Below, one piece after another: positions 9,024 to 63,312 of a stretch of DNA of 64,000 nucleotides. Positions within the stretch are counted from its first letter, which is position 1. Each line of letters opens with the position of its first letter. A program made the translations under genes and the position numbers. This stretch comes from Streptomyces sp. NBC_01197 (lineage in GTDB: Bacteria > Actinomycetota > Actinomycetes > Streptomycetales > Streptomycetaceae). The stretch lies in assembly GCF_036010505.1 (NCBI RefSeq), contig NZ_CP108569.1, forward strand, positions 1,674,001 through 1,738,000, read 5' to 3'. A model generated the notes under the pieces. That model searched no databases, had not been told where the DNA came from, and was given only the letters and a program-made list of their open reading frames with translations.

Positions 9024-10163
9024 TCAGCCGATGGCCGGCACCGGCTGCGGCGGGGGCGGACCCACGTAGCGGGCCGCAGGGCGGATGATCTTGGAGTCCG
9101 CCGCCTGCTCCAGGATGTTGGCGCTCCAGCCGATCACCCGCGCCACACAGAAGGTCGGCGTGAACATCTCGCGCGGCAGCCCGCACTGCTCCATGACGAC
9201 CCCGGCGTAGAACTCGACGTTGGTGTGCAGTTCACGGCCGGGTTTGAGTTCGGCGAGCAGTGCCTCCACCCTCTCCTCGACCTGGACGGCGAAGTCGACG
9301 AGCGGTCCGCCGAACCCCATGGCGATCTCCCGCAGCATCCGCGAGCGCGGGTCCTCGGTGCGGTAGACGGGGTGCCCGAAACCCATGATCCGGTCGCCCG
9401 CCAGCACCCTCTCCCGTATCCACGGGTCGATACGGTCCGGTGTGCCGATGGCGTCGAGGGTGTCGAGCGCCCGGCTCGGCGCTCCGCCGTGGAGCGGCCC
9501 GGAGAGGGCGCCGACCGCACCGGTCAGGCAGGCGGCCACATCGGCGCCGGTGGATGCGATGACGCGGGCGGTGAAGGTGGAGGCGTTGAAGCCGTGGTCG
9601 ACGGTGGAGACCAGATACTGCTCGACGGCGCGCGCCCGGTCCGGGTCCGGCTCCGAACCGGTGATCATGTAAAGGTAGTTGGCCGCTGCGGGCAGGTCGT
9701 CACGCGGTTCGACGGGCTCCAGCCCCTGGCCGGTCCGGTACAGCGCGGCCAGCAGCGTCGGTACGACCGCGCAGGCGGTGAGGGTGTCGGCGACCCGCCG
9801 GTCCGTGCCGATGTCGTAGACCGGCCGGAAGCCGGACTCGGCGCCGAGCAGGGACAGCGCGGTCCGCAGCCCGGCGAGCGGACCGGATCCGGCGCGGGCG
9901 ATGGCGGGCAGTGCCTCCCGGACCCCGGCCGGAAGCCGGCGCAGCGCGGCGGTCCGGGCGGTGAAGGACTCGCACTGGGCGGCGTCGGGGAGTTCGCCGT
10001 TGACCATCAGGTACCAGACGTCCTCGAAGGTGCGGAGCTGGGCGAGGTCGACCGCCGAGTACTGCCGGTAGTGGTAGAAGCCCTCGCGGCCCCGCACGTC
10101 GCCCAGTTCGGTTTCCGTGACGACTACACCCGCGAGCCCTCGTGGGGCGGTGATGGTGGACAT
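9024..10163 (-). CDS. Citrate synthase family protein (citrate synthase 2 type)
   Basis: 379 residues. It condenses oxaloacetate with acetyl-CoA, or a related acyl-CoA, at the TCA entry. The ATG at 10163 has a perfect AAGGAG six bases upstream. Catalytic histidines are in GPLHGGAPS and GFGHPVYRTEDPR, and the acyl-CoA loop arginines are present. The third catalytic position reads HTNVEFYAG, with Glu where most citrate synthases have Asp, so activity or specificity may differ. It is divergent from a DNA-binding citrate synthase homologue, and the region between contains three TTGA/TCAA repeats, suggesting control by that neighbour. A 2-methylcitrate synthase role cannot be excluded. Confidence 0.88.
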   Translation of the reverse strand: MSTITAPRGLAGVVVTETELGDVRGREGFYHYRQYSAVDLAQLRTFEDVWYLMVNGELPDAAQCESFTARTAALRRLPAGVREALPAIARAGSGPLAGLRTALSLLGAESGFRPVYDIGTDRRVADTLTACAVVPTLLAALYRTGQGLEPVEPRDDLPAAANYLYMITGSEPDPDRARAVEQYLVSTVDHGFNASTFTARVIASTGADVAACLTGAVGALSGPLHGGAPSRALDTLDAIGTPDRIDPWIRERVLAGDRIMGFGHPVYRTEDPRSRMLREIAMGFGGPLVDFAVQVEERVEALLAELKPGRELHTNVEFYAGVVMEQCGLPREMFTPTFCVARVIGWSANILEQAADSKIIRPAARYVGPPPPQPVPAIG

Positions 10164-10252
10164 GACTGTCTCCTTGGTCCAAGCACGCCCCGACAGGTGC
10201 ACCCCGACAGGAGTGCCTTGTCAGGTGCGCCTCGTGACGCGTTCCCTCTTCA

Positions 10253-10305
10253 TTGATTCGACTGTCCATGATTGACTCAAGTCCTGTCAATGTTGATTGA
10301 ATCAA
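10253..10305. promoter_or_regulatory. Three spaced TTGA/TCAA-type repeats between divergent citrate synthase genes
   Basis: An AT-rich patch in an otherwise GC-rich region. It holds TTGATTCGA (10253-10261), TTGACTCAA (10272-10280) and the perfect palindrome TTGATT-G-AATCAA (10293-10305). Centres are about 19 and 23 bases apart, roughly two helical turns each. The last lies 20 bases before the start of the helix-turn-helix citrate synthase. This is the likely operator for divergent control of both genes; the binding protein is inferred to be the neighbouring fusion protein. Confidence 0.6.
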
Positions 10306-10324
10306 TATAGATACGGTGGACCAC

Positions 10325-11638
10325 ATGAGCGATCAACCAGCGGCGGCGGAACCCCGGCGGCTGACCACCAGGGAGGCGGCCGACCGGCTCGGGGTGAAGC
10401 CGGAGACCGTGTACGCGTATGTCAGCCGCGGCCAGCTCGGCAGCCGCCGGGCACCGGGCGGCCGGGGCAGCACCTTCGATGCCGCCGAAGTCGAGGCGCT
10501 GGCCGCACGCGGCACCCGGCGGGAGCCCCAGCCATCCGCCGACCTCGCCTTCCGCACCGGCGTGACGCTGATCGACCCGGACGCCGACCGGTACTACTAC
10601 CGGGGGGTGGATGCGACCGGACTCGCTGGGCGGTACTGCTACGAGGAGGTCGCCGAATGGCTGTGGACCGGCACGCTCCGCCCCGGGGTGCGGTTCACCG
10701 CTCCTCCCGAGGCGCTGGTGGCCGGGCGGCGGGCAGTCGGGGCGCTGCCCGCGCACAGCACCGCGATGGACCGGCTGCGGGCGGTGGCCGTCGCCGCGTC
10801 GGCGGCCGACCCGCTGCGTTTCGATCTATCGACGGACGCGGTACTGGGGACGGCACGCGCCCTGATCCCCACGCTGGTGGGCTCGCTGCCACTCGTGGAA
10901 GGCGCGGACCGGAACGGAACAGCCGGGGAAGCCAGTACGGACACGACAGACACTGCAGACCCAGCAGCCGGGGCAGACGGGGCAGGGCTGGCGCCCCGGT
11001 TCTGGCGCCGGCTCACCGCGCAAGCACCTGACGGCAGTTCACTGGCCGTACTGGAGGCCGCACTTGTGCTGCTCATCGACCACGACCTGGCGGCTTCCAC
11101 GCTGGCGACGCGGGTCGCGGCATCGGCACGCGCCCATCCGTACGCGGTCGTCTCTGCCGGGCTCGGCGCGCTGGAGGGCCCCCTGCACGGCGCGGCCAGC
11201 GGACTGGCCCACCGGATGCTGGCGGAGGTGCTGGAGCGGGGCGGGGCGGCCCCGGTCGTCGCCGACCATCTGCGGGCCGGGAGGCGGGTACCGGGTCTCG
11301 GGCACCGGCTCTACCGGGGCGAGGACCCCCGGGCCACGGCGCTCTTCGCGCTGCTCGACAGGGTCCCGGCGGCCGGTCCAGCGCTCGCCGCCGCCCACGA
11401 CGTGGTGACGACGACGGCACGCCATACCGAGCTGCACGCAAACGTCGATCTGGCGCTCGCCGTGCTCTCGGTGTCCTCGGGGATGCGCGCCGAGGCGGGG
11501 GAAGCGGTGTTCGCAGTGGCCAGGACGGCGGGCTGGATCGCCCATGCCCTCGAGGAGTACGCGGAACGGCCACTGCGGCTGCGCCCGAGCGGCCAGTACA
11601 ACGGCCCGCGCCCGCCAAAGGCGCTGCCCCTGCCGTGA
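10325..11638 (+). CDS. Citrate synthase-like protein fused to an N-terminal helix-turn-helix domain
   Basis: 437 residues from ATG 10325; a GTG three codons earlier is also possible, and no clear ribosome-binding site is seen. Residues about 12-60 form an excisionase/MerR-like helix-turn-helix (RRLTTREAADRLGVKPETVYAY, then RGQLGSRRAPGGRGSTF, the wing). The remainder is a citrate synthase fold that keeps the catalytic set: His in GPLHGAASG, His in PGLGHRLYRGEDPR, and Asp in HANVDLALAV. An Ala/Thr/Asp-rich insert (about residues 200-220) precedes the large-domain core. The architecture implies a transcription factor sensing oxaloacetate, acyl-CoA or citrate, or a bifunctional enzyme. The CitA-type kinase gene follows after 63 bases, perhaps in one transcript. 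Confidence 0.9.
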   Translation: MSDQPAAAEPRRLTTREAADRLGVKPETVYAYVSRGQLGSRRAPGGRGSTFDAAEVEALAARGTRREPQPSADLAFRTGVTLIDPDADRYYYRGVDATGLAGRYCYEEVAEWLWTGTLRPGVRFTAPPEALVAGRRAVGALPAHSTAMDRLRAVAVAASAADPLRFDLSTDAVLGTARALIPTLVGSLPLVEGADRNGTAGEASTDTTDTADPAAGADGAGLAPRFWRRLTAQAPDGSSLAVLEAALVLLIDHDLAASTLATRVAASARAHPYAVVSAGLGALEGPLHGAASGLAHRMLAEVLERGGAAPVVADHLRAGRRVPGLGHRLYRGEDPRATALFALLDRVPAAGPALAAAHDVVTTTARHTELHANVDLALAVLSVSSGMRAEAGEAVFAVARTAGWIAHALEEYAERPLRLRPSGQYNGPRPPKALPLP

Positions 11639-52289: not shown

Positions 52290-54260
52290 TTACTGACCGG
52301 TCTCCTTGGCCACAGCGTCGATCGCTGCCAGTGACCGGCGGATCTGGTTCCGGTCCGTGGTGAACCAGAAATCGGGCAGCGAAGCCCTCAGATAGCTTCC
52401 GTAGCGCGCGGTGGCCAGCCTCGGGTCCAGCACCGCGACAACACCGCGGTCCCCCATGGCCCTGACCAGTCGGCCGGCGCCCTGCGCCATCAGCAGAGCG
52501 GCATGCGTCGCGGCAACGGCCATGAACCCATTGCCGCCGCCCTCCTCGACCGCTTTCTGCCGAGCGCTCATCAGCGGGTCGTCCGGGCGGGGGAAGGGGA
52601 TCCGGTCCATCACCACCAGCTGACAGCTGGGTCCCGGGACATCGACCCCTTGCCAGAGGGACAGCGTCCCGAAGAGGCAGGTCTCGGGATCGGCCGCGAA
52701 ATTCTTGATCAACTCACCGAGCGTCTCCTCGCCCTGGAGCAGCACACGCCTGTCCTGCCTGCTGCGCAGCTCCTCGGCGGCTGCCTGGGCGGCCCGCATG
52801 GAGGAGAACAGACCGAGGGTGCGCCCGCCCGACGCCTCCACCAGATCGGCGAGCTCGTCCAGCATGTCGGTACGCGATCCCTCCCGGCCCGGGGCCGAGA
52901 GGTGTTTGGCGACGTACAGGATGCCTTGCTTGGCGTAGTCGAAGGGCGAGCCGACATCGAGGCCCTTCCATTGCGGGACGTCCTCTCCCTCGGTCCCCTC
53001 CGGTGAGAGGCCGAGTGAGGCGCCGACCCCGTTGAAGTCACCGCCGAATTTGAGCGTCGCGGAGGTGAGAACGACTGAACGGTCGGCGAAGAGCTTCTCC
53101 CGGAGGAGCCCTGAGACCGAGAGCGGCGCGACACGCAGGGAAGCGCCGAAACGGTCATGGCGCTCATACCAGACGACGTCGTACTCGGATCCGAGGGTGA
53201 TCCGCTCGGCGACATCGTGGATGGACTCGACGGACGCCAGAGCCTGTTTCCGTACGACGTCCTCGTCCTGCACGGATTTGTCCCGGGTGGCACCGATGGC
53301 AGAGATGACGGTCCGGGCCGCGTCGCGCAGGGACATCAGCGCATATCCGAGGTCCTCGGGGATCTCTTCGAGCCGGCCCGGGAGCGCCAGCTCCATGACC
53401 CGTTCGAAGGTCTCGGAAGCGGTCTGGAGGGCGTCTGCCGCTTTCTCGTTGACGAGCTTCGCCGCACGCCGCACCGCCCTGTTGACCTGGCCCGGAGTGA
53501 GCTCGCCCGTGGCCACACCGGTGACCCGGGAGACCAGCTCATGAGCCTCGTCCACGATCAGCACCTCGTGCTGCGGGAGGACCGGTGCGCCCTCGATCGC
53601 GTCGATGGCGAGCAGGGCGTGGTTGGTCACGACGACGTCAGCGAGTTTGGCCCGCTCACGGGCGGCCTCGGCAAAGCACTCGGCCCCGTAGGCGCATTTG
53701 CTTGCCCCCAGACACTCCCGGGAGGAGACGGAGATCTGGCCCCATGCGCGGTCGGAGACGCCCGGAGTGAGATCGTCACGGTCACCCGTCTCCGTCTCGT
53801 CCGCCCAGTCCCGCATACGCAGCAGGTCCTGGCCGAGCTTGCTGCTGGGGACGGCGGTCTCGAACTGGTCGAACAGCCCGTCCTCCTCTTCCTGCGGTAC
53901 GCCTTCATGGAGCCGGTGCAGACAGAGGTAGTTGGACCGCCCCTTCAGCATGGCGAACTGAGGGCGCCGCCGCAGCAGGGGCTGCAGGGCCTCGACCGTA
54001 CGCGGGAGGTCTCGCTCCACTAGCTGCCGCTGGAGTGCGAGCGTCGCGGTGGCCACCACGACGCGCTCCCCGTGAGCCAGCGCGGGGACGAGATACCCCA
54101 GCGACTTTCCGGTACCGGTGCCGGCCTGGACCAGCAGGTGGGCGTTGTCGTCGACGGCTTCGGCAACAGCCTCGGCCATGGTGACCTGGCCGGGCCGCTC
54201 CGTACCGCCCACAGCGGTGACGGCGGCGTGCAGGAGCTCGGGGAGGGAGGGCTTCGTCAT
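52290..54260 (-). CDS. DinG/XPD-family ATP-dependent DNA helicase
   Basis: 656 residues from ATG 54260; an upstream in-frame start at 54293 is less likely. Motif I GTGTGKSLGYLVPA, the DEAH box LIVDEAHELVSR, and VI QGAGRLVR (within LLMAQGAGRLVRAMGD). Between I and II are four cysteines (YLCLH, then RECLGASKCAYGAECF) for an iron-sulfur cluster. It probably resolves R-loops or repair intermediates, and its location beside lexA fits a DNA-damage role, although no LexA box was seen before it. Confidence 0.92.
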   Translation of the reverse strand: MTKPSLPELLHAAVTAVGGTERPGQVTMAEAVAEAVDDNAHLLVQAGTGTGKSLGYLVPALAHGERVVVATATLALQRQLVERDLPRTVEALQPLLRRRPQFAMLKGRSNYLCLHRLHEGVPQEEEDGLFDQFETAVPSSKLGQDLLRMRDWADETETGDRDDLTPGVSDRAWGQISVSSRECLGASKCAYGAECFAEAARERAKLADVVVTNHALLAIDAIEGAPVLPQHEVLIVDEAHELVSRVTGVATGELTPGQVNRAVRRAAKLVNEKAADALQTASETFERVMELALPGRLEEIPEDLGYALMSLRDAARTVISAIGATRDKSVQDEDVVRKQALASVESIHDVAERITLGSEYDVVWYERHDRFGASLRVAPLSVSGLLREKLFADRSVVLTSATLKFGGDFNGVGASLGLSPEGTEGEDVPQWKGLDVGSPFDYAKQGILYVAKHLSAPGREGSRTDMLDELADLVEASGGRTLGLFSSMRAAQAAAEELRSRQDRRVLLQGEETLGELIKNFAADPETCLFGTLSLWQGVDVPGPSCQLVVMDRIPFPRPDDPLMSARQKAVEEGGGNGFMAVAATHAALLMAQGAGRLVRAMGDRGVVAVLDPRLATARYGSYLRASLPDFWFTTDRNQIRRSLAAIDAVAKETGQ

Positions 54261-54299: not shown

Positions 54300-56105
54300 T
54301 CACACCTCGTGCAGAGGGTTGGCGACCGTCCCGTGCACGGCGGCGTGCGGGCGGTTCGGGCGGTCGCGGTAGCCGTCGAGGTGGAGCCGGTTGCGGTTCA
54401 GGCAGAGCCGCTCGATCCGCGGGGTGAGCAGGTCGAACGCCTCGTAGCGCTCCTTGAGCTCGGGGAACCGGGCTTGGTGGTGCAGGATCTCGGCGCGTAC
54501 CAGCCGCCAGAAATCCGCCTCCGGAACTCCTAGTTGATCTTCACAGAGTGGGGCGAGGTACCGGAACACCCCGACGAAGAGGCCGGAGTGGATGAACTGC
54601 GTCAGGAAGGCCGGCTCCTCGGTCAGCAGCACGTCCCGCACGTCGGCGGGCATCGAGTCGTGCTCCGGCAGGGGCTCCGCGCTGATGTTGACGTCGTCGA
54701 CGAAGTCCTTGATCGCGAGCCGCACCGGGACATCGTGGTCGTCGAATACGACAATGGCGTTCTCGCCGTGCGGGGAGAAGACCGTTCCGTAGCGGTAGAG
54801 GAAGCGCAGCAGCGGGGGGAGCAGCGCGGCGAAGAGCCGCTCGAGCCAGGCGGCGGGCGCGAGTCCCGACCGGGCGACGAGCTCCGCGGTGAAGGAGCGG
54901 CCCTGAATGTCGGTGTGGAGCAGGGAGGCGAGCGTACGGGCGCCTTCGCCGGCGGCCAGCTGCACACCGAGCGGTTCGCGCCAGATGGCGCCGAGGAGTT
55001 CCCGGTACTGGTAGGGAACTTCCGGCAGGTGGTCGTACAGAGGATGCTCGACCGCGACGGAAGCGACTTCGCCCAGCAGGATGACGCCGCACTCGTCGCG
55101 CAGGAACGCATCGCTGTCGCGCAGCCCCTGGACCCACGCTGTCACGGCCGGAGCGGCGAGTGTCCGCTCGGTGGGGAGGCCGCGCCAGACCAGGGTGTTG
55201 AGGATCGACAGCGGCAGCTTCACCGTGTGCCGCTCGGGGTGTTCGACGTTGAGGAAGGTCCGGATGGACTGCTGCGGCAGGCGCGGATCGCCATCAGCGT
55301 GGAGCGGGACGATCTGGTGGTGGGCGATGGCCGGTGCGTAGAGCGGCAGGATCACTTCGTCCCACTGCCAGGGGTGCACGGGGAGGTAGAGAAACCCCTC
55401 CGGGTCCAGCCCACGGGCCCTTAACTCGGCGGCGAAGGACTCCCGGACGGCGGTGTCGAGTTCGCGCCGGTAGAGCCGGTCGGGCGTCGATAGGCCGGTG
55501 ACACCCCGGTACTGGGCGAGGTCCGTGCTGACCGCGATCCATGGCAGCCGGGCGGGCCGGCGGGACTCGGGTGTCCAGCGGGCGGCGTCGGCCGCCGAGA
55601 ATCCGATCCGGCCCTTGTTGAGTACGAGCCAGGGGTGGCCGGTCTGATGGCCTTCCAGCCGCGCGTAGTCGAGTTCGGCGAGTTCGGCGGCGAGGAGCGC
55701 GGTGTGATCCATACGGGCATCGGCAGCGAGGGTGGTGGTGAGCTCGCGGACCAGGTGCCCCAGAGTCGCGCCGTCCAGGGCGAGCAGCCTGCGGGCCAGG
55801 AGGAGGAAGCGGAGCGGGTCGCTGAAGGGTTCGCCCTGGAGCGCGATGGTGTCCTGGTCGATGTGCCAGTGCCCGTACGCACCGCGCCGGGCCCGGAAGG
55901 TCAGCGGCAGGTCGTCATCCAGCGTGAGCGTGTGGCGGCCGCCGGTCCGTGCCACCGGCTCGATGATCTCTTCGTAGGCGAAGGCGCCGAGCATCTTGGC
56001 GAGAAGACGGCGAGCCGCACGGTCCCAGTCCTCGGGGTTCAGCTCGGCGGGGGCGAGCAGCGTCGGTTCTGCTTCGGAGTCGAAGCCAGCAGACGGATTC
56101 AGCAC
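54300..56105 (-). CDS. NRPS-independent siderophore (NIS) synthetase, IucA/IucC family, second
   Basis: 601 residues from GTG 56105 (GAGGAG five bases upstream). IucA/IucC motifs: GHQTGHPWLVLNKGRIGFS, YLPVHPWQWDEV, HTVKLPLSILNTLVWRG, and FSPHGENAIVVFDD. The C-terminal FhuF-like part is present. Such enzymes adenylate a citrate or succinate-type carboxylate and join it to an amine. Codon 228 is TTA (55422-55424), the rare leucine codon read by the bldA tRNA, and the only in-frame TTA I found in the window's genes. Last gene of the operon, 243 bases after the acyltransferase gene. Confidence 0.93.
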   Translation of the reverse strand: MLNPSAGFDSEAEPTLLAPAELNPEDWDRAARRLLAKMLGAFAYEEIIEPVARTGGRHTLTLDDDLPLTFRARRGAYGHWHIDQDTIALQGEPFSDPLRFLLLARRLLALDGATLGHLVRELTTTLAADARMDHTALLAAELAELDYARLEGHQTGHPWLVLNKGRIGFSAADAARWTPESRRPARLPWIAVSTDLAQYRGVTGLSTPDRLYRRELDTAVRESFAAELRARGLDPEGFLYLPVHPWQWDEVILPLYAPAIAHHQIVPLHADGDPRLPQQSIRTFLNVEHPERHTVKLPLSILNTLVWRGLPTERTLAAPAVTAWVQGLRDSDAFLRDECGVILLGEVASVAVEHPLYDHLPEVPYQYRELLGAIWREPLGVQLAAGEGARTLASLLHTDIQGRSFTAELVARSGLAPAAWLERLFAALLPPLLRFLYRYGTVFSPHGENAIVVFDDHDVPVRLAIKDFVDDVNISAEPLPEHDSMPADVRDVLLTEEPAFLTQFIHSGLFVGVFRYLAPLCEDQLGVPEADFWRLVRAEILHHQARFPELKERYEAFDLLTPRIERLCLNRNRLHLDGYRDRPNRPHAAVHGTVANPLHEV

Positions 56106-56348
56106 GGGGACTCCTCGGGGTGGAACCGATTCGGGACGGGCGGTGTATCAAAAGCAACAGTTCGTCAGGGCGGGGATGTACAGCACGGGGCGTAAGGGCA
56201 GGGGAGGCACCGACAACGGAGGCACCGGCAGGGGATGCGCCGGTAGGGGACGCACATGAACGGGGGCGCAGAGGTGGGAGGTTCAGGAGTCGGGGGTGTA
56301 CAGGCGGCCTCACAGAGGTGGTCACCACTGTGCGGGGATGGGAGGTGT
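56106..56348. other. Gap inside the siderophore operon with imperfect short repeats
   Basis: 243 bases, long for an operon junction. It contains several imperfect copies of GGCACCGRCA / GRYGCGCCGG-type blocks (about 56196-56255). It may hold a second promoter for the last synthetase or a processing site; no gene seen. Confidence 0.4.
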
Positions 56349-57131
56349 TCACATCAGGTCGCGGTAGGCACGGTCGCGGACCATCAGTGCCGCGCGTTTG
56401 TCGGGAAGGTCCACTTCGGCCGAGTAGCGGAATCCCGCACGGAGGAAGGCCGACACGGAGGGGGTGTTGCGCAGGTCCGGCTCGGCGACGACGCGGGTGC
56501 ACTGGGGTCGGTTGTCCAGTACGAGGTCGGAGACGGCACGCAGCAGGGTGGTACCGGTGCCGTGCCCCCGGTCGGCGACACCGCCGATCAGAAGGTGCAG
56601 ACCGGTGTCGTGGGGGTGTGCCGGATAGTGCCGGGCCAGTGGATCGAGGTCGGCGCGGTACATCTCCCAGTAGCTCATGGGGGTGCCCTGGAGCACTCCG
56701 AGGCAGGGGATACTCCGGCCGTCGCCGCCCAGTTGGGGGCGCAGATGAGCGCGTGTGACGGATTCGGGGCCCGAGAGCTCCCAGAAGGCGGCGACGGCTG
56801 GGTCGTTCATCCAGTGGCTGACGAGGGAGAGGTCGCGTTCGATGTCCACGGGTACGAGTTGGAAGACACCGGCCGGGGTGGCGACCGGCTGCCAGGTGCT
56901 GGGGCTGTCCAGCAGGTCGCCACCGGCGGAGCCGGGAGAGGCGGGCCACCGAGCGTGTGCCAGGTCTCCGGTGTGCAGCAGTGACAGCAGGTCCTCGGAC
57001 AACCGCAGGTCCAGGGTGTCCTCGGACTCCTCGTCGGTCCGTGGGACAGGTCCTGTCCCGCCATGGGCGCTCGCATCCGTGGAGGGCACAGCCACTCTCC
57101 TCATACTCTGCTCAGCTATCGGTCGGGTCAT
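56349..57131 (-). CDS. GNAT acyltransferase, siderophore type (RhbD/AlcB/IucB-like)
   Basis: 260 residues. Its ATG overlaps the preceding synthetase stop (ATGA). After an about 85-residue Ser/Asp-rich start, the AlcB-like domain reads FQLVPVDIERDLSLVSHWMNDPAVAAFWELSG, a signature of siderophore N-acyltransferases. It ends with GNAT acetyl-CoA motifs (GVADRGHGTGTTLLRAVSD, RVVAEPDLRNTPSVSAFLRAGF). Relatives acylate an N-hydroxylated diamine. Here no monooxygenase is encoded alongside, so the true acceptor is unclear. Confidence 0.9.
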   Translation of the reverse strand: MTRPIAEQSMRRVAVPSTDASAHGGTGPVPRTDEESEDTLDLRLSEDLLSLLHTGDLAHARWPASPGSAGGDLLDSPSTWQPVATPAGVFQLVPVDIERDLSLVSHWMNDPAVAAFWELSGPESVTRAHLRPQLGGDGRSIPCLGVLQGTPMSYWEMYRADLDPLARHYPAHPHDTGLHLLIGGVADRGHGTGTTLLRAVSDLVLDNRPQCTRVVAEPDLRNTPSVSAFLRAGFRYSAEVDLPDKRAALMVRDRAYRDLM

Positions 57132-59086
57132 GCCTCAGTGGAGTGAAGGGGGTTGGTAAGACGGACGTAGACGGACTGGGTGTCGACCGGGCCGACGAGC
57201 TCGTCGAGGCCGTGGAGTCGGGTCAGGAGGTTGGCCTTGGTACGCAGGACGGGGGTGTCGAGGAGTTGAGCAGGCAAAGGGGAGCCGAGGGCGGTGGCTC
57301 GGGTGAGGAACTGCCGGAAGGCGGCGAGCAGCAGCCGTTCGTCGGCAAGTCGCTGGGCGCCGAAGGCGCCGATCAGTCCGAAGACATTGTTGATGGCGAG
57401 GTAGTAGGCGAAGCGTTCATCGGTGACGTCGTCTGCGACGAAGGTGTCGCTGACGGCTCCGACCCCGGGGAGTCGCTTCTCCAGTGCGGCACGGTGGGAC
57501 TCCCGGAAGTAGTAGCCCTGGTTGTCTCGGTATCGGCCGCCGATTGGCCAGCCGCCCGGGCCGAGGATGACGATGGTGTTCTGCTGATGCGCTTCGAGGG
57601 CGATGCCCGCGGTGCCGTCCAACCACAGCACCGGGCGTACGACATGGTCGAGATAGCGCAGGAACCACTCGGTGGCGACAGCTCCGGTGGGCCGCCCGGT
57701 CCTGGCCGCGAGTGCGGTCACGATGTCGGCGAGACGCGAACGCATGGCACCGCCGCCGGGGCGTGGGCGGATCGCGGTGAGCCCGGCGACGCAGACGGCG
57801 TCGTCGGCGGCACTGAACGGATTGTGGCGGAGGACGACGTCGAAGCCCGGAAGCGGTTCACCGGCAGGCGTGTTCACGGCCAGCCAGGCCGGATCACGGA
57901 CGATGTCGAAGCCGGGGTGGGCTGCTTGCCATGCACCGCCGAGGCCGCTCCGCAGGACCCGGTGGACCTCCACGCCGCGGTGGAGTTCCTTGCGGAGGTT
58001 CTCCCGGCGGGAGTTGGTGATGCGGAGCCCGAGGGACAGCTTGAGCATCGCTGCGCCGCCCGGCCGGTGGACGGTGCGTACGGAGGAGGTGGGATACCAG
58101 GGGTCGCCGTGCGGACCGAGGTCGTGCAGCAGCCCCGCCTCGAGAAGGGCGGCCACCGCGGGGCGGTGGGCCAGGTCCCGGGCCTGCCAGGGATGGACCG
58201 GCAGAAGGGCTGTGTTGTCGGGGTGCTTGACGGCACCCGCGAAGCGGGCGGTGAGCTGGTCGGCGGGCAGCGTGCGTCCCTTCTCCGTCCACGCCGAGTC
58301 CTGCGCGAGTACGGAGCGGTCGACGGCCATCCAGTGCAGAGCGAACTCGCCACGCAACTCCGGCGAGTACAGCCGGAGTTCGGCGGCCGAGAGACTCTCG
58401 CGGCTCTTCGGTGTGGGGTGCAGCGGGTGACCGAGCAGGAGGGACTGTTCTGCGGTCAGGAAGGGATCCGCCCCACCGGTCGGCTCCGGCCTGCGACGGC
58501 GCTCCGTGATGAAGGCGGCGGTCCGGTGTACCGAATCGGCGACCCTGCCGACCAGCTCGGTGCTGTCGCTCTGACCCGCCTCCCTGCCGAGGAGGGCGGC
58601 GACGGTGACGGCGTCGGCGCGGGGCGCGCCGATCGATCCGCCTTCGAGCACCGGTTTGCCGAACCTGTGCAGGCCGGTGGCCGACCAGTACAGGACGGGG
58701 ACGAGCAGCGCGATACCGCTGGCGTTCAGAGGGATGCGCAGTGTGGGCCCGTTGGGCGCGGACAGGTCGGTCTCCCGGACCCAGCAGCGCAGCAAGTTCT
58801 CGACGGCCGCAGCCTCGGCGGCCGTGTGAGGTTCCGGTGCGTCGATGGGGTCTTCGAAGAGGCCGGGTACCGGACGCCCCCCGGGGGTACGGTCCGCCGT
58901 CATCTGGCGCGGCACCATCTCGGGGCCGGCCGAGAGCGAACCGCTCGATACCGGGCCGACGGTGAGGGAATCGGCCCGCAGCTGCTGGGCCGGGAGCGAG
59001 TGGGCCGGGAGCGGACCTGCGGTACGGCTGCTGGGGGCGGCGGAGTCACCGGTCTCGGGGACATCGGGGTCAGGCATGGGGTTCAC
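57128..59086 (-). CDS. NRPS-independent siderophore (NIS) synthetase, IucA/IucC family, first
   Basis: 652 residues from GTG 59086, chosen because AAGGAAG lies seven bases upstream; an ATG at 59077 is nearby, and the frame upstream overlaps the aminotransferase. The first about 85 residues are Pro/Ser-rich and not part of the family. Motifs: LLLGHPLHPTPKSR (carboxylate site), LLPVHPWQARDL, MLKLSLGLRITNSRREN, and ALEAHQQNTIVIL. The ATP-grasp-like NIS core looks complete. Together with the second synthetase it should couple two amine units to citrate, as RhbC and RhbF do. Confidence 0.92.
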   Translation of the reverse strand: MNPMPDPDVPETGDSAAPSSRTAGPLPAHSLPAQQLRADSLTVGPVSSGSLSAGPEMVPRQMTADRTPGGRPVPGLFEDPIDAPEPHTAAEAAAVENLLRCWVRETDLSAPNGPTLRIPLNASGIALLVPVLYWSATGLHRFGKPVLEGGSIGAPRADAVTVAALLGREAGQSDSTELVGRVADSVHRTAAFITERRRRPEPTGGADPFLTAEQSLLLGHPLHPTPKSRESLSAAELRLYSPELRGEFALHWMAVDRSVLAQDSAWTEKGRTLPADQLTARFAGAVKHPDNTALLPVHPWQARDLAHRPAVAALLEAGLLHDLGPHGDPWYPTSSVRTVHRPGGAAMLKLSLGLRITNSRRENLRKELHRGVEVHRVLRSGLGGAWQAAHPGFDIVRDPAWLAVNTPAGEPLPGFDVVLRHNPFSAADDAVCVAGLTAIRPRPGGGAMRSRLADIVTALAARTGRPTGAVATEWFLRYLDHVVRPVLWLDGTAGIALEAHQQNTIVILGPGGWPIGGRYRDNQGYYFRESHRAALEKRLPGVGAVSDTFVADDVTDERFAYYLAINNVFGLIGAFGAQRLADERLLLAAFRQFLTRATALGSPLPAQLLDTPVLRTKANLLTRLHGLDELVGPVDTQSVYVRLTNPLHSTEA

Positions 59087-59132
59087 GGGGGTGCTTCCTT
59101 GCGCGGCCGGCGGGATTGGTGGGGAGGTGGCT

Positions 59133-60548
59133 TCAGTGCGGGCGCCGGGTCTCATGACGGCTGTGGACGGCACGTTCGGCAGCGGACAGGGCGTCGACCA
59201 GCCGGTCCAGAACCGCCTCCGCCTGTTCGTCGGTGAGGGTGAGGGGAGGCAGCAGACGCACGACGCTCGCGTGGCGGCCGCCGAGTCCGACGATGAGCCC
59301 CCTGGCCAGACACTCCCGCTGTACGGCGGCCGCGAGCCGGGGATCCGCCGGCGAGGGACCGACGGCACCCGTCTCCCGGCTATCCGGAGCAACTGCGGCT
59401 TGGGTGGCGTCGGCGGCTTCCGGGTCGACGAGTTCCAGGCCGATCATCAGGCCCCGGCCTCGTACGTCGCCGATGGCCGGGTGGTCGGCGGCCAGGCCCC
59501 GCAGCCTGCCGATCACGCGTGCGCCCAGGTCGGCCGCCCTCTCGGCGAGCCGGTTCTCACGGACATGCGCGAGGGTGGCAGCGCCCGCGGCCATGGCGAG
59601 CTGATTGCCGCGGAAGGTACCCATGTGAGCTCCGGGCTCCCAGCAGTCCAGATCCGACCGGTAGACGATGACAGCGAGCGGGAGGGAACCCCCAATGGCC
59701 TTGGACATCACCATCACGTCGGGAACGATCCGGCTGTGCTCGACCGCCCAGAAGGCACCGGTGCGGCCGACGCCGGACTGCACCTCGTCCGCGATGAGCG
59801 GAATGGACCGGTCGGCGGTGATCTTCCGCATACGGCGCATCCAGCTGTCCGGTCCGGGGATCACCCCGCCCTCGCCCTGCACCGGTTCGAGGATCATCGC
59901 GGCCGGGAGAGCCACCCCGCTCCTGGGGTCGTCGAGAAGGGACTCGGTCCAGTTGCCGGACAGCTCCCGGCCCCGGGCGCCGCCGACCCCGAACGGGCAG
60001 CGGTAGTCCTGCGGATACGGCAGCCGCGTCACCCGTACGTCGGGAGCGCCGCCGGACAGTGCCAGCGCCCCGGCCGTCATGCCGTGGCAGGCGCCGGTGA
60101 ACGCGAGGATTCCGCTGCGGCCGGTGGCGGTGCGGACGAGTTTGAGGGCTGCTTCGACCGCGTCCGTACCAGCAGGACCGCAGAACTGCACCCGTGCCTG
60201 GTCCGCGAATCCGGGCGGCAGGGTCTCGAACAGCTCGGTGACGAACGCGTCCTTGACCGATGTGGCGAGATCCAGGACCTGCAGGGGGGCTCCCGAATCG
60301 ATCGCCTTCCTGATCGCCTCGAGGACCACCGGGTGGTTGTGTCCGAGCGCCAGAGTCCCCGCCCCCGACAGGCAGTCGAGATACCGCCGTCCGTCCGCAC
60401 CCTCGATGGTCAGCCCGCGTGCGCGTACCGGCACGATCGGCAGCGACCGCGCGTAGGTACGGGCTGCGGATTCACGCATCGACTGGCGGCGCAGGATCCC
60501 CTCGTGCGCTGTCGTCGCCGCCGACGGTGCGGTTTCGGTCACGGCCAC
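59133..60548 (-). CDS. Diaminobutyrate-2-oxoglutarate aminotransferase-like enzyme (RhbA/Dat type)
   Basis: 471 residues from GTG 60548, chosen because GGGAGG lies about ten bases upstream; the family starts soon after (ILRRQSMRESAARTYARSLP). Class III aminotransferase: GPAGTDAVEAALKL, MILEPVQGEGGVIP, LIADEVQSGVGRTG, and the PLP lysine in VMVMSKAIGGSLPLAV. It should turn aspartate semialdehyde into L-2,4-diaminobutyrate, as in rhizobactin- and acinetobactin-type pathways. First gene of the siderophore operon. No ectoine genes nearby. Confidence 0.9.
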   Translation of the reverse strand: MAVTETAPSAATTAHEGILRRQSMRESAARTYARSLPIVPVRARGLTIEGADGRRYLDCLSGAGTLALGHNHPVVLEAIRKAIDSGAPLQVLDLATSVKDAFVTELFETLPPGFADQARVQFCGPAGTDAVEAALKLVRTATGRSGILAFTGACHGMTAGALALSGGAPDVRVTRLPYPQDYRCPFGVGGARGRELSGNWTESLLDDPRSGVALPAAMILEPVQGEGGVIPGPDSWMRRMRKITADRSIPLIADEVQSGVGRTGAFWAVEHSRIVPDVMVMSKAIGGSLPLAVIVYRSDLDCWEPGAHMGTFRGNQLAMAAGAATLAHVRENRLAERAADLGARVIGRLRGLAADHPAIGDVRGRGLMIGLELVDPEAADATQAAVAPDSRETGAVGPSPADPRLAAAVQRECLARGLIVGLGGRHASVVRLLPPLTLTDEQAEAVLDRLVDALSAAERAVHSRHETRRPH

Positions 60549-60719
60549 TGCTGTTGGTCCTCCCGCTGTACGGATCGGCCGCCGCGCCCCTCGTCCCACG
60601 ACCGTCGCCACCGGCGCTGAACGCAGCCCAAGGGCCCCCATCCGTACCAACGACGAAGTCCCCCCGGGAGCACGGGTAAGTCGGAAGATCCTTGCGGGGT
60701 CGGAACCACGGCCCTGCGT

Positions 60720-60746
60720 TATGCCGTCCACATCGGCACCGGCATA
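60720..60746. promoter_or_regulatory. Inverted repeat in the siderophore/protease divergent region
   Basis: TATGCCG-13-CGGCATA, perfect arms, with an inner TGCCG-7-CGGCA. It lies between the aminotransferase start (60548) and the lipoprotein start (60846) in a 297-base region. I saw no actinobacterial iron box (TTAGGTTAGGCT-like). The repeat is the only candidate operator. Confidence 0.4.
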
Positions 60747-60845
60747 GTGGGGCCCGCACTTTGGTTCCGGTCAGTTCCACGTTTCCGCAGTTCCGCACCA
60801 CAGTGCCGAAATCCGTTGTTCCGGAGTCCCAGGGGGAATCACCAC

Positions 60846-62066
60846 ATGCGACCGCTACGCCCGACTTCCACCGAACGCCACGGGAGGCGCGCGTCCCGGC
60901 GAACGCTCCCCGTCATGGCCGCTGTTGGCCTCACGGCGGCACTCGCCCTCACCGCGACCGCCTGCGGTCCCGGCGACGACAACGCCAGTGACAAGCCGGC
61001 CGCCACCACCTCGTCGTCCTCCGACGGCAAGGTCGTCATACCGGACAACGTCAGGGGCGCGCTGAAGAAGCACGGCATCGACCTGGACAAGTGGAAGCAC
61101 GGCGCGTGGAAGAACTGGAGCAAGGACAAGTGGCTGCGTGAGGCGCAGGACTTCGTCAACCCGGTCATCTCCGGGCTCTGGGACCCGTCCAGGATGCGGC
61201 ACGCGACCAAGCCCCCGGAGAAGCCGGTCGACAACGACATCTCCGGTGACAAGGGGGTGACCGACCCGACTCCGGCGCCGGTGACCGCGCAGGGCGTCAA
61301 CGCCCCGTACCACCAGAGCATTCCAGAGGCGGGCAAGGTCTTCTTCGACAGTCCTGAAGGGTCGATGGTCTGCTCGGCGACGGTCGTCGAGGACCCCGCA
61401 CACCCCGGGAAGTCCAACCTGGTATGGACCGCGGGCCACTGTGTGCATGCCGGAAAGAAGGGCGGCTGGTACCGGAACATCGCCTTTGTCCCCTCGTACA
61501 ACAACAGCGGGATGTCCGTCGCCCAGTTGCAGAACGCCAAGAAGGACGAGGTCGCTCCGTACGGCGTCTTCTGGGCGGACTGGGCCCAGACTTCCGAGCA
61601 GTGGATCAACGACGGCGGCCCCACCGGCGGGCAGGGCGCCCCGTACGACTTCGCGGTCCTGCACGTCACTCCTGAGAAGGGCAGCACCAAGTCCCTGGAG
61701 GAGACGGTCGGAGGCGCGCTTCCGGTGAACTTCAACGCGCCCGCGGTGCCGGAGATCCCGAGCCTGACGGCGACGGGCTACCCCGCGGCGCCCCCGTTCG
61801 ACGGCCAGAAGCTGTTCCAGTGCTCCGACCGTCCGGGCCGTCTCTCGCTCTCCGCGGCCGACCCGACGATGTACCGCGTCGGCTGCACCATGACCGGCGG
61901 ATCCTCCGGCGGCGGCTGGATAGCCAAGGGCGCCGACGGCAAGCCCGCGCTCGTGTCGAACACCTCCATCGGCCCGGTGACCGCAGGCTGGCTGGCCGGT
62001 CCGCGCCTCGGCAAGGTGGCCAAGGGCGTATACGACTCGGTCAGCAAGAAGTACGCGGGCCAGTAG
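60846..62066 (+). CDS. Secreted serine-protease-like lipoprotein, copy 1
   Basis: 406 residues from ATG 60846 (GGGGGA nine bases upstream). Twin-arginine-like basic start, hydrophobic core and lipobox LTATAC with Cys40. A charged spacer containing a W-K-rich segment (KWKHGAWKNWSKDKWLREAQD) precedes a trypsin-like domain: His in LVWTAGHCVHAG, Asp in PYDFAVLHV and Ser in MTGGSSGGGW. The family is extracellular S1-like, but the GGSSGGG active-site loop differs from GDSGGP, as in the V8/glutamyl group. Its near-twin follows 76 bases later. Substrate unknown. Confidence 0.88.
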   Translation: MRPLRPTSTERHGRRASRRTLPVMAAVGLTAALALTATACGPGDDNASDKPAATTSSSSDGKVVIPDNVRGALKKHGIDLDKWKHGAWKNWSKDKWLREAQDFVNPVISGLWDPSRMRHATKPPEKPVDNDISGDKGVTDPTPAPVTAQGVNAPYHQSIPEAGKVFFDSPEGSMVCSATVVEDPAHPGKSNLVWTAGHCVHAGKKGGWYRNIAFVPSYNNSGMSVAQLQNAKKDEVAPYGVFWADWAQTSEQWINDGGPTGGQGAPYDFAVLHVTPEKGSTKSLEETVGGALPVNFNAPAVPEIPSLTATGYPAAPPFDGQKLFQCSDRPGRLSLSAADPTMYRVGCTMTGGSSGGGWIAKGADGKPALVSNTSIGPVTAGWLAGPRLGKVAKGVYDSVSKKYAGQ

Positions 62067-62142: not shown

Positions 62143-63312
62143 ATGCGATCCATCCGTCCGATACTGACCGCCACCGGAGTGGCCGCTGCCCTGGCGCTGA
62201 CGGCCACCGCGTGTGGCGGCGGTGACGACAAGGCTGCCGCTCCGGCCGCCGACAAGTCCACGGTATCCGCGGCGTCCGGCGCCGACGCGGCGGCCGGTGT
62301 GTCCGACGCCCTCAAGCGCCACGGTGTCGACCTGGCGAAGTGGAAGAGCGGCCAGTGGAAGAACTGGGACAAGGACAAGTGGCTCCGTGATGCCAAGGAC
62401 TTCGCCAATCCGGTGATCAAGGGGCTGTGGAAGCCCGACCGGATGAAGACGGCCAGGGATCCGCAGAAGACCATGGCTTACGGCGACAGTTCGGGCGGCC
62501 AGAACGTGACCGACCCGGAGCTCGCTCCGGTGAAGGCCCAGGAGGAGAAGCACCCGTACCACCGGTACGCGGCGCCTGTCGGGAAAGTCTTCTTCGACTC
62601 CCCCGAGGGCTCCATGGTCTGCTCGGGCACGGTCGTCAAGGACCCGAAGCACCCGGGCAAGTCCAATCTGGTGTGGACCGCGGGCCACTGCGTCCACGCG
62701 GGCGGCAAGGGCGGCTGGTACCGGAACATCATGTTCGTGCCGTCGTACAACGACCAGGGCAAGTCGATCGCCCAGCTGCGGAACGCACCGTCGCAGGAAG
62801 TCGCCCCGTACGGCAAATACTGGGCCGACTGGGCCATGACGTCCAACGCGTGGATCAAGGACGGTGGCCCCACCGGCGGGCAGGGCGCCCCATACGACTA
62901 CGCCCTGCTCCATGTGAAGCCGGAGAACGGGGGCAAGTCCCTCGAAGAGACCGTCGGCAACGCGCTGACCGTCGACTTCAACGCTCCCGCTGCCAAGAGT
63001 ATCTCCGCGATGGGCGCCTGGGGTTACCCGGCCGCCCCGCCGTTCAACGGTCAGCTGATGAACAAGTGCGTCGACCGGCCGGGACAACTGTCCGTCAGTC
63101 CCGGCACGCCGGCGATGTGGCGCATCGGCTGCACCATGACCGGTGGTTCGTCCGGTGGCGGCTGGTTCATCGCGGGCCCGGACGGCAAGTCGGAGCTGGT
63201 CTCCAACACCTCGATCGGCCCGGTCACCTCGGGCTGGCTGGCGGGGCCTCAGCTCGGCCAGGGTGCGCAGCAGCTCTACCAGGCGATGAGCGACCGGTAC
63301 GCGAACCAGTAG
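62143..63312 (+). CDS. Secreted serine-protease-like lipoprotein, copy 2
   Basis: 389 residues, a close paralogue of the preceding gene (same KWLRDAKDFANPVIKGLW segment, VWTAGHCVHAGGKGGWYRNI, PYDYALLHVKP, MTGGSSGGGWF). Signal peptide with lipobox Cys24 in ALTATAC. The spacer after the cysteine differs most, while the catalytic half is strongly conserved, pointing to tandem duplication with divergence of the anchor region. Followed by a 24-base-pair hairpin that ends the transcript. Confidence 0.88.
   Translation: MRSIRPILTATGVAAALALTATACGGGDDKAAAPAADKSTVSAASGADAAAGVSDALKRHGVDLAKWKSGQWKNWDKDKWLRDAKDFANPVIKGLWKPDRMKTARDPQKTMAYGDSSGGQNVTDPELAPVKAQEEKHPYHRYAAPVGKVFFDSPEGSMVCSGTVVKDPKHPGKSNLVWTAGHCVHAGGKGGWYRNIMFVPSYNDQGKSIAQLRNAPSQEVAPYGKYWADWAMTSNAWIKDGGPTGGQGAPYDYALLHVKPENGGKSLEETVGNALTVDFNAPAAKSISAMGAWGYPAAPPFNGQLMNKCVDRPGQLSVSPGTPAMWRIGCTMTGGSSGGGWFIAGPDGKSELVSNTSIGPVTSGWLAGPQLGQGAQQLYQAMSDRYANQ

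Follow-up and report, generated by a model that had tools for sequence, protein, structure and literature searches.

A four-gene siderophore operon of Streptomyces as the probable half of a split hydroxamate-citrate pathway

A stretch of 64,000 nucleotides from the chromosome of Streptomyces sp. NBC_01197 (contig NZ_CP108569.1, positions 1,674,001 to 1,738,000; here called the window) contains an operon of four genes, two of which encode nonribosomal peptide synthetase-independent siderophore (NIS) synthetases. We designate the genes of the pathway A (aminotransferase), B (decarboxylase), C and F (NIS synthetases), D (GCN5-related N-acetyltransferase, GNAT) and E (monooxygenase); the operon holds A, C, D and F. 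Gene identities at the level of family, gene positions, conservation and trees suggest, with a probability that we put at about 0.65, that the operon represents half of a hydroxamate-citrate pathway of the schizokinen/rhizobactin type whose genes are divided between two loci, the ancestral B and E having been lost and a B-E pair of other ancestry completing the pathway in trans. The chemistry of such a pathway is general background, and substrates, product and the connection of the two loci are read from sequence: A would make 2,4-diaminobutyrate, B would decarboxylate it to 1,3-diaminopropane, E would N-hydroxylate the diamine, D would N-acylate the hydroxylamine, and C and F would attach the first and second arms, respectively, to citrate, so that the product in NBC_01197 would be schizokinen or a close analogue. 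The history would be one in which a six-gene ancestral operon, situated beside a dinG-type helicase gene, was reduced by the loss of B and E in the lineage of Streptomyces, decarboxylation and hydroxylation now being supplied in trans by a B-E pair of different ancestry.

The four genes of the operon are co-directional on the minus strand and extend from 54300 to about 60.6 kb (Table 1). The frame of A is open from 60731, and homology in most Streptomyces loci, as judged from tblastn conservation, starts at about 60.57 kb, near the 60548 given in a first-pass annotation of the window. A scored 467.8 bits against TIGR00709, above the cutoff of 401.6, and 634.3 bits against the narrower model NF005393, under the cutoff of 671. 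The best match of C among solved structures was the aerobactin synthetase IucA (E 9.1e-52, query residues 197-752 of the long frame); that of D was MbtK, its best solved matches being siderophore acyltransferases; and those of F were DesD, AlcC, DfoC and IucC. By these matches C would be a type A and F a type C NIS synthetase, and D is predicted, at family level only, to be a hydroxylamine acyltransferase. The operon thus contains both the IucA-like and IucC-like synthetase pair of the rhizobactin/schizokinen type and a diaminobutyrate aminotransferase, and the family and solved-structure matches bear out the gene calls of the first-pass annotation and its assignment of the genes to rhbA, rhbC, rhbD and rhbF. 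Its observation that the genes are ordered as in the rhb cluster also holds: the order equals that of an unannotated cluster containing all six families on plasmid pRmeGR4c of Sinorhizobium meliloti GR4 (L207), minus B and E. We take this cluster to be the rhizobactin 1021-type rhbABCDEF of Sinorhizobium; one stretch of S. meliloti 1021 pSymA gave no match, and GR4 was compared instead. There is, as had also been noted, no transporter in the operon, and exporter and uptake genes are absent next to it.

The decarboxylase and monooxygenase that the first-pass annotation described as missing are indeed not within the operon, but both families are found elsewhere in the chromosome. The monooxygenase family has eight matches in the NBC_01197 genome, two of them strong, namely desB and one at C1:5938994, and the decarboxylase family has five, including desA and one that adjoins the second monooxygenase. 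The genes of this B-E pair overlap by 4 bases (L019:8604-9968 and 9965-11368), are flanked by pepN and a 2',3'-cyclic phosphodiesterase-like gene, and lie 4.2 Mb from the operon. When B was ranked against solved structures, a diaminobutyrate decarboxylase (2qma, 247 bits) came before a desferrioxamine decarboxylase (5o5c, 208 bits), and the DesA of the same genome, used as a control, gave the reversed ranking (346 and 563 bits, respectively). E matches the flavin N-monooxygenase family, and the best structures for it include desferrioxamine monooxygenase and putrescine N-hydroxylase; that it would act on a diamine is a prediction. That B acts on diaminobutyrate is not proven by these scores. 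A genome-wide absence of B and E can nevertheless be rejected, the pair having been located beside pepN, and a search for rhbB/rhbE or desAB homologues, as advised in the first-pass annotation, returned a complete desABCD as well as this separate pair. The two options offered there, that the pathway borrows enzymes from the des locus or that the product is built directly on diaminobutyrate, are accordingly not needed, although each keeps a small probability. A decarboxylase and monooxygenase elsewhere that are dedicated to the operon, named there as what would overturn the proposal, are largely what the pepN-linked pair provides, its dedication being a prediction.

This arrangement can be set beside known systems. 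Having all six genes in one cluster is the usual rhizobactin/schizokinen arrangement, although it is not essential; here B and E are away from the operon, and a single six-gene cluster is not what we found. In the GR4 plasmid all six genes form one cluster, in which the decarboxylase and the monooxygenase resemble DesA and DesB more closely than they do the NBC_01197 pair. A schizokinen gene set comprises a diaminobutyrate aminotransferase, a decarboxylase, a monooxygenase, an acetyltransferase and two NIS synthetases, and the same set is expected here, a likeness drawn from the chemistry and not from comparison with a characterised schizokinen cluster. The aerobactin genes iucABCD share the IucA-like and IucC-like synthetases with the operon; the logic of GNAT and hydroxylase is alike, but aerobactin uses lysine, with neither aminotransferase nor decarboxylase. 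The desferrioxamine genes desABCD have decarboxylase, monooxygenase, GNAT and type C synthetase families in common with the two loci together, but have no IucA-like synthetase and no diaminobutyrate aminotransferase, and carry an iron box before desA.

The site of the operon has held B and E in sister genera. Named genomes were scanned with the G156-cluster monooxygenase as query, and the best 80 of 576 relatives were all mapped; among these 80, Embleya scabrispora, E. hyalina and Yinghuangia seranimata (both genera being labelled Streptomycetaceae by the tree tool) have contiguous A-B-C-D-E-F followed by dinG, a Sporichthyaceae metagenome-assembled genome has B-C-D-E-F-dinG, and two Kitasatospora, S. 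novaecaesareae NRRL B-1267 and Streptomyces sp. NRRL S-350 have C-D-E-F-dinG. NRRL B-1267 groups with Kitasatospora in trees; NRRL S-350 was outside the tree set. Among 345 genomes sampled across the class, C was matched in 44 from outside the genus, and 32 of the 44 (hand count) had a decarboxylase match within ~3 kb on the same contig; for the other 12 the decarboxylase was on another contig, absent, or its place was not printed. In Streptomyces sp. TRM64462 all six genes (A, B, E, C, D and F) stand together, its B and E being close to the pepN family. The annotation of Rhodococcus pyridinivorans plasmid pSID gives decarboxylase, NIS, GNAT, monooxygenase and NIS.

The pair beside pepN does not, however, appear to be the original one. 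In quick maximum-likelihood trees (short searches, with test groups chosen after earlier trees had been seen), the Streptomyces dinG-operon C is placed with Kitasatospora C (99), and the F of that operon with the F proteins of Actinopolymorpha and of the full operons linked to dinG (95), whereas the pepN-linked B and E group with B-E-F clusters found mostly in Pseudonocardiaceae (L179, L331, L349, L352, L361, L362, L375), with a second Streptomyces decarboxylase-monooxygenase pair and with some contiguous clusters. Forcing the pepN-linked proteins to group with their dinG-site counterparts was rejected by the approximately unbiased (AU) test both for B (p-AU 6e-8) and for E (p-AU 1e-6), which rejects a simple relocation of the original genes. 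A DesA origin of B was likewise rejected (p-AU 6e-88); against a DesB origin of E the test gave no clear rejection. Because the tree tests reject a grouping of the pepN pair with dinG-site B and E, it seems from the sequences that the original genes were lost in Streptomyces and that a pair of other ancestry is in use, that is, a xenologous replacement. The second pair, termed be2, is 62-65% identical and occurs in six genomes (L091-L095, L185), with no NIS genes in view.

Both halves are widespread in a genus sample of 150 genomes, NBC_01197 included. C was found in 140 of them, and B above the level of DesA in 132, a count that includes four genomes with B only in a separate paralogous cluster (G035, G043, G044, G114) and one with a fragment only (G081). 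Among 58 B loci viewed with short flanks, a few of them belonging to be2 or to paralogous clusters, E was in view in 57 and pepN or the phosphodiesterase in 45; none of the 58 had A, C, D or F beside B (matches of >50% identity). Of 75 dinG/C loci taken, 4 in which either dinG or C could not be seen were dropped, and the remaining 71 comprised 46 with ACDF, 14 with ACD, 7 with CD, 3 with CDF and 1 with C alone. None of these 71 had B or E at the dinG-site operon; two further records, Streptomyces by name, are exceptions in holding E there.

In two or three lineages the operon and the pair also seem to have been lost together, which is consistent with a functional link between them but not proof of it. 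Among the 10 genomes without C, the site is empty or nearly so in seven (G014, G027, G032, G092, which retains an A-like remnant, G130, G132 and G142), F persists at a contig break in two (G028, G050) and one is undecidable (G139). Five of the 7 genomes that lost the operon, among 149 decidable ones, lack both B and E; in G032, E is kept and B would lie beyond the contig end. Of 142 operon-bearing genomes, 4 (hand count, G139 excluded) lack a non-des B or E at the counted level: G008, G050 and G079, which are fragmented or incomplete assemblies, and G121, which has C and D, no pepN-linked pair in view, and both B and E in the paralogous cluster. At decayed operons B has partly disappeared too, as in G131, G051 and G121, but G094, with C and D only, keeps both B and E. 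Fisher tests on these hand-typed counts, with relatives treated as independent, gave p 4e-6 for the operon against any B/E and p 4e-11 for C against B; in the latter table G097, G099, G028, G032 and G139 were scored as B-less though the contig ends beside E, and G010 though the region is unreadable.

A number of observations weigh against a split schizokinen-type pathway. First, the losses fall in about three groups of the dinG tree with only two or three independent pairs, and an independent-pairs test was not significant; moreover, G014 keeps E alone without the operon, and G131 (C and D only) and G051 (C only) have no B, with E kept. Second, the substrate of B is not fixed by its relatives. 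DesA of the same genome outscores B on 2qma, and the best NCBIfam model for B is RhbB, with 286 bits against a cutoff of 900, where DesA scores 447. The S. meliloti rhb-type decarboxylase joins the NBC_01197 DesA (98, with a long-branch warning) and scores nearer to it than to B, the monooxygenase of that cluster similarly resembles DesB, and in the f19 clusters retrieved from the count of C with a neighbouring decarboxylase the decarboxylase is DesA-like; the tree position of B is therefore no proof of a diaminobutyrate substrate. The nearest relatives of the pair outside Streptomyces sit in the Pseudonocardiaceae B-E-F clusters, which may make another hydroxamate. Third, the trees leave the sister relation of Embleya and Yinghuangia C to Streptomyces C without resolution, and a grouping of E with DesB was not clearly rejected (p-AU 0.067). 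Fourth, 15 of the 22 genomes in which the locus lacks F keep a pepN-type B, and with B-E kept without F the only known candidate for the second synthetase of a symmetric product there would be a protein at the level of DesD. Fifth, no DmdR iron box was found in the window (up to 3 or 2 mismatches), nor in 57 upstream regions of A and 39 of B. Finally, S. anulatus NRRL B-2873 carries a separate contiguous A-B-C-E-F cluster (L338), and a cluster of this type is a possible source of the schizokinen reported from S. anulatus.

That report, based on liquid chromatography–mass spectrometry (LC-MS), concerns S. anulatus RLA103 and ascribes schizokinen to biosynthetic gene cluster (BGC) 1.15 (PMC11865988); schizokinen was also tentatively detected by LC-MS in S. 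mutomycini SL02 (BGC2.11) and Streptomyces sp. SL03 (BGC1.9) (PMC13136089). The passages concerned do not name the genes, and the product is not tied to the present operon. Further separate NIS clusters with matches to A, B, C, E and F and none to D occur in some Streptomyces (L080-L085, L087, L090, as well as L338); those scanned hold an ornithine/diaminopimelate-decarboxylase-like enzyme (L080, L083, L087) and a glutamine-synthetase-like enzyme (L080, L083), and such clusters probably make a different product. Protofrankia coriariae (L182, L317) has an A-C-E-F cluster in which no B was detected, possibly another split of the same pathway.

Several of these points bear on an alternative that is doubtful yet worth serious consideration, namely that the B-E pair serves the operon and the product is another citrate hydroxamate, with a diamine of other length, a longer acyl group or, in strains that lack F, a mono-amide. 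The substrates of B, D and E are predictions, B and E are of a lineage seen in the Pseudonocardiaceae clusters, and 22 of 71 loci have no F, which means that not all members of the genus need make the same product. A search for F in those 22 genomes returned only DesD-level matches (33-37%) in 16, a match of ~50% located in the paralogous cluster in G035, G043, G044 and G121, and nothing in G051 and G094, so that a relocation of F elsewhere is not supported; in G094 and in G049, which also lacks F, B and E were seen beside pepN (L293, L294). A single product across the genus is thus doubtful. NBC_01197 itself, on the other hand, has both A and F, in keeping with the gene set for symmetric schizokinen. 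A bolder version, which we offer tentatively and consider rather unlikely, is that the lasting core across the genus is C, D, B and E and not F, and that many strains make a citrate mono-hydroxamate or pass a half-molecule to another synthetase, giving an undescribed small chelator outside DmdR iron-box control.

It is distinctly unlikely that the pair has an unrelated role and that the operon makes a non-hydroxamate directly on diaminobutyrate. The 4.2 Mb between the loci, the want of a common upstream motif, the occurrence of be2 without NIS genes in view and the retention of E in G014 would all agree with this, but the siderophore acyltransferases among the best matches of D, the presence of B and E at the same site in sister genera and the decarboxylase neighbours of C in 32 of 44 other genomes argue against it. 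We regard as highly unlikely a third alternative, in which N-hydroxycadaverine made by DesA and DesB would feed D, C and F and yield a product like arthrobactin. The complete desABCD of NBC_01197, the incomplete separation of E from DesB, and G131, which without B keeps C, D, E and a DesA-level match, are what it would explain. However, A belongs to a diaminobutyrate and not a lysine pathway, most genomes of the genus hold a non-des pair, and G094 keeps C, D, B and E with no DesD-level protein found. We also consider it very unlikely that the operon is a decaying relic without a product. It has been lost from 7 of the 149 decidable genomes, one of which retains an A-like remnant, and it is partial at 25 of 71 loci, but C is found in 140 of 150 genomes and all four genes at 46 of 71 loci.

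Control of the two loci by the known iron box is not supported. The DmdR consensus used here matched at four places in the NBC_01197 genome (<=2 mismatches), none at the pair or the operon: one site is 73 bases before desA, another precedes a gene 2 kb further on, and two lie away from des, at C1:1319078 and C1:6382689. No 9-mer was common to more than ~14% of both sets of upstream regions, and the best position weight matrix for a shared motif reached z 2.5 on an assumed effective sample size. Upstream of A there is a conserved leader or promoter block, the anchor motif of which (<=2 errors) occurs in 55 of 57 upstream regions, which align well. When folded as a consensus, its sense strand outperforms 60 column shuffles (z -5.8), the opposite strand being far weaker; covariation was not shown, the pairs hardly varying among 45 sequences. 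No Rfam family matched the leader at gathering score, one weak match far below it lying elsewhere in the stretch. In some genomes that lack the operon, most clearly in G032, the block persists wholly or partly; none was found at the loci tested from Kitasatospora, Embleya, Yinghuangia and G156 or at the B-E loci tested.

The operon is bordered downstream by the dinG-type gene and upstream by two divergent tandem lipoprotein genes, neither of which matched Pfam or NCBIfam. Both show trypsin-like catalytic motifs by eye and read like serine proteases, and we rejected them as candidate siderophore receptors.

Table 1 Features of the window operon, its surroundings and the loci elsewhere in the same chromosome
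Feature	Coordinates	Strand	Basis or remark
A, diaminobutyrate--2-oxoglutarate aminotransferase (Dat/RhbA-like)	59133..60629	-	Aminotran_3, Dat family; start approximate
C, NIS synthetase, IucA-like	57128..59077	-	IucA_IucC and FhuF; start approximate
D, GNAT acyltransferase	56349..57104	-	Acetyltransf_8; frame open from 57131
F, NIS synthetase, DesD/AlcC/IucC-like	54300..56105	-	IucA_IucC and FhuF
B-E pair	C1:5937603-5940367		outside window, same chromosome; decarboxylase and Lys/Orn-type monooxygenase families
desABCD	~C1:5012195-5017236 (L018)		complete desferrioxamine locus, apart from B-E
Leader/promoter block upstream of A	60632..60752 (ends approximate, ~120 nt)	-	conserved; alignment among Streptomyces
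dinG/yoaA-like helicase	52290..54260	-	syntenic landmark downstream; outside pathway
Lipoprotein resembling trypsin-like serine protease (motifs by eye)	60915..62066	+	divergent landmark upstream; outside pathway
Paralogue of preceding lipoprotein	62179..63312	+	67% identity over 338 residues; outside pathway

The first-pass annotation had named SCO5799-5801 as the equivalent Streptomyces locus, with no product known to it as characterised. In tables of published papers SCO5799 is listed as an aminotransferase, SCO5800 as siderophore biosynthesis and SCO5801 as hypothetical; from the gene numbers and these tables, the S. coelicolor locus may be of the A-C-D form without F. In passages of the open-access literature, SCO5799-5801 appear as a siderophore-type or putative siderophore locus, or the genes are tabulated, and among the titles and abstract openings listed from the open-licence literature none described such a two-locus split.

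What we infer is a known chemistry in an unusual split arrangement across the genus sample, for a NIS locus carried by most of the Streptomyces sampled. The claim names two candidates for the missing genes together with a history of their separation. If it is true, the orphan status of the locus would be explained by the fact that mining by cluster detects one half of the pathway only, and a clustered gene set would be able to break, via replacement from another lineage, while the pathway itself survives.

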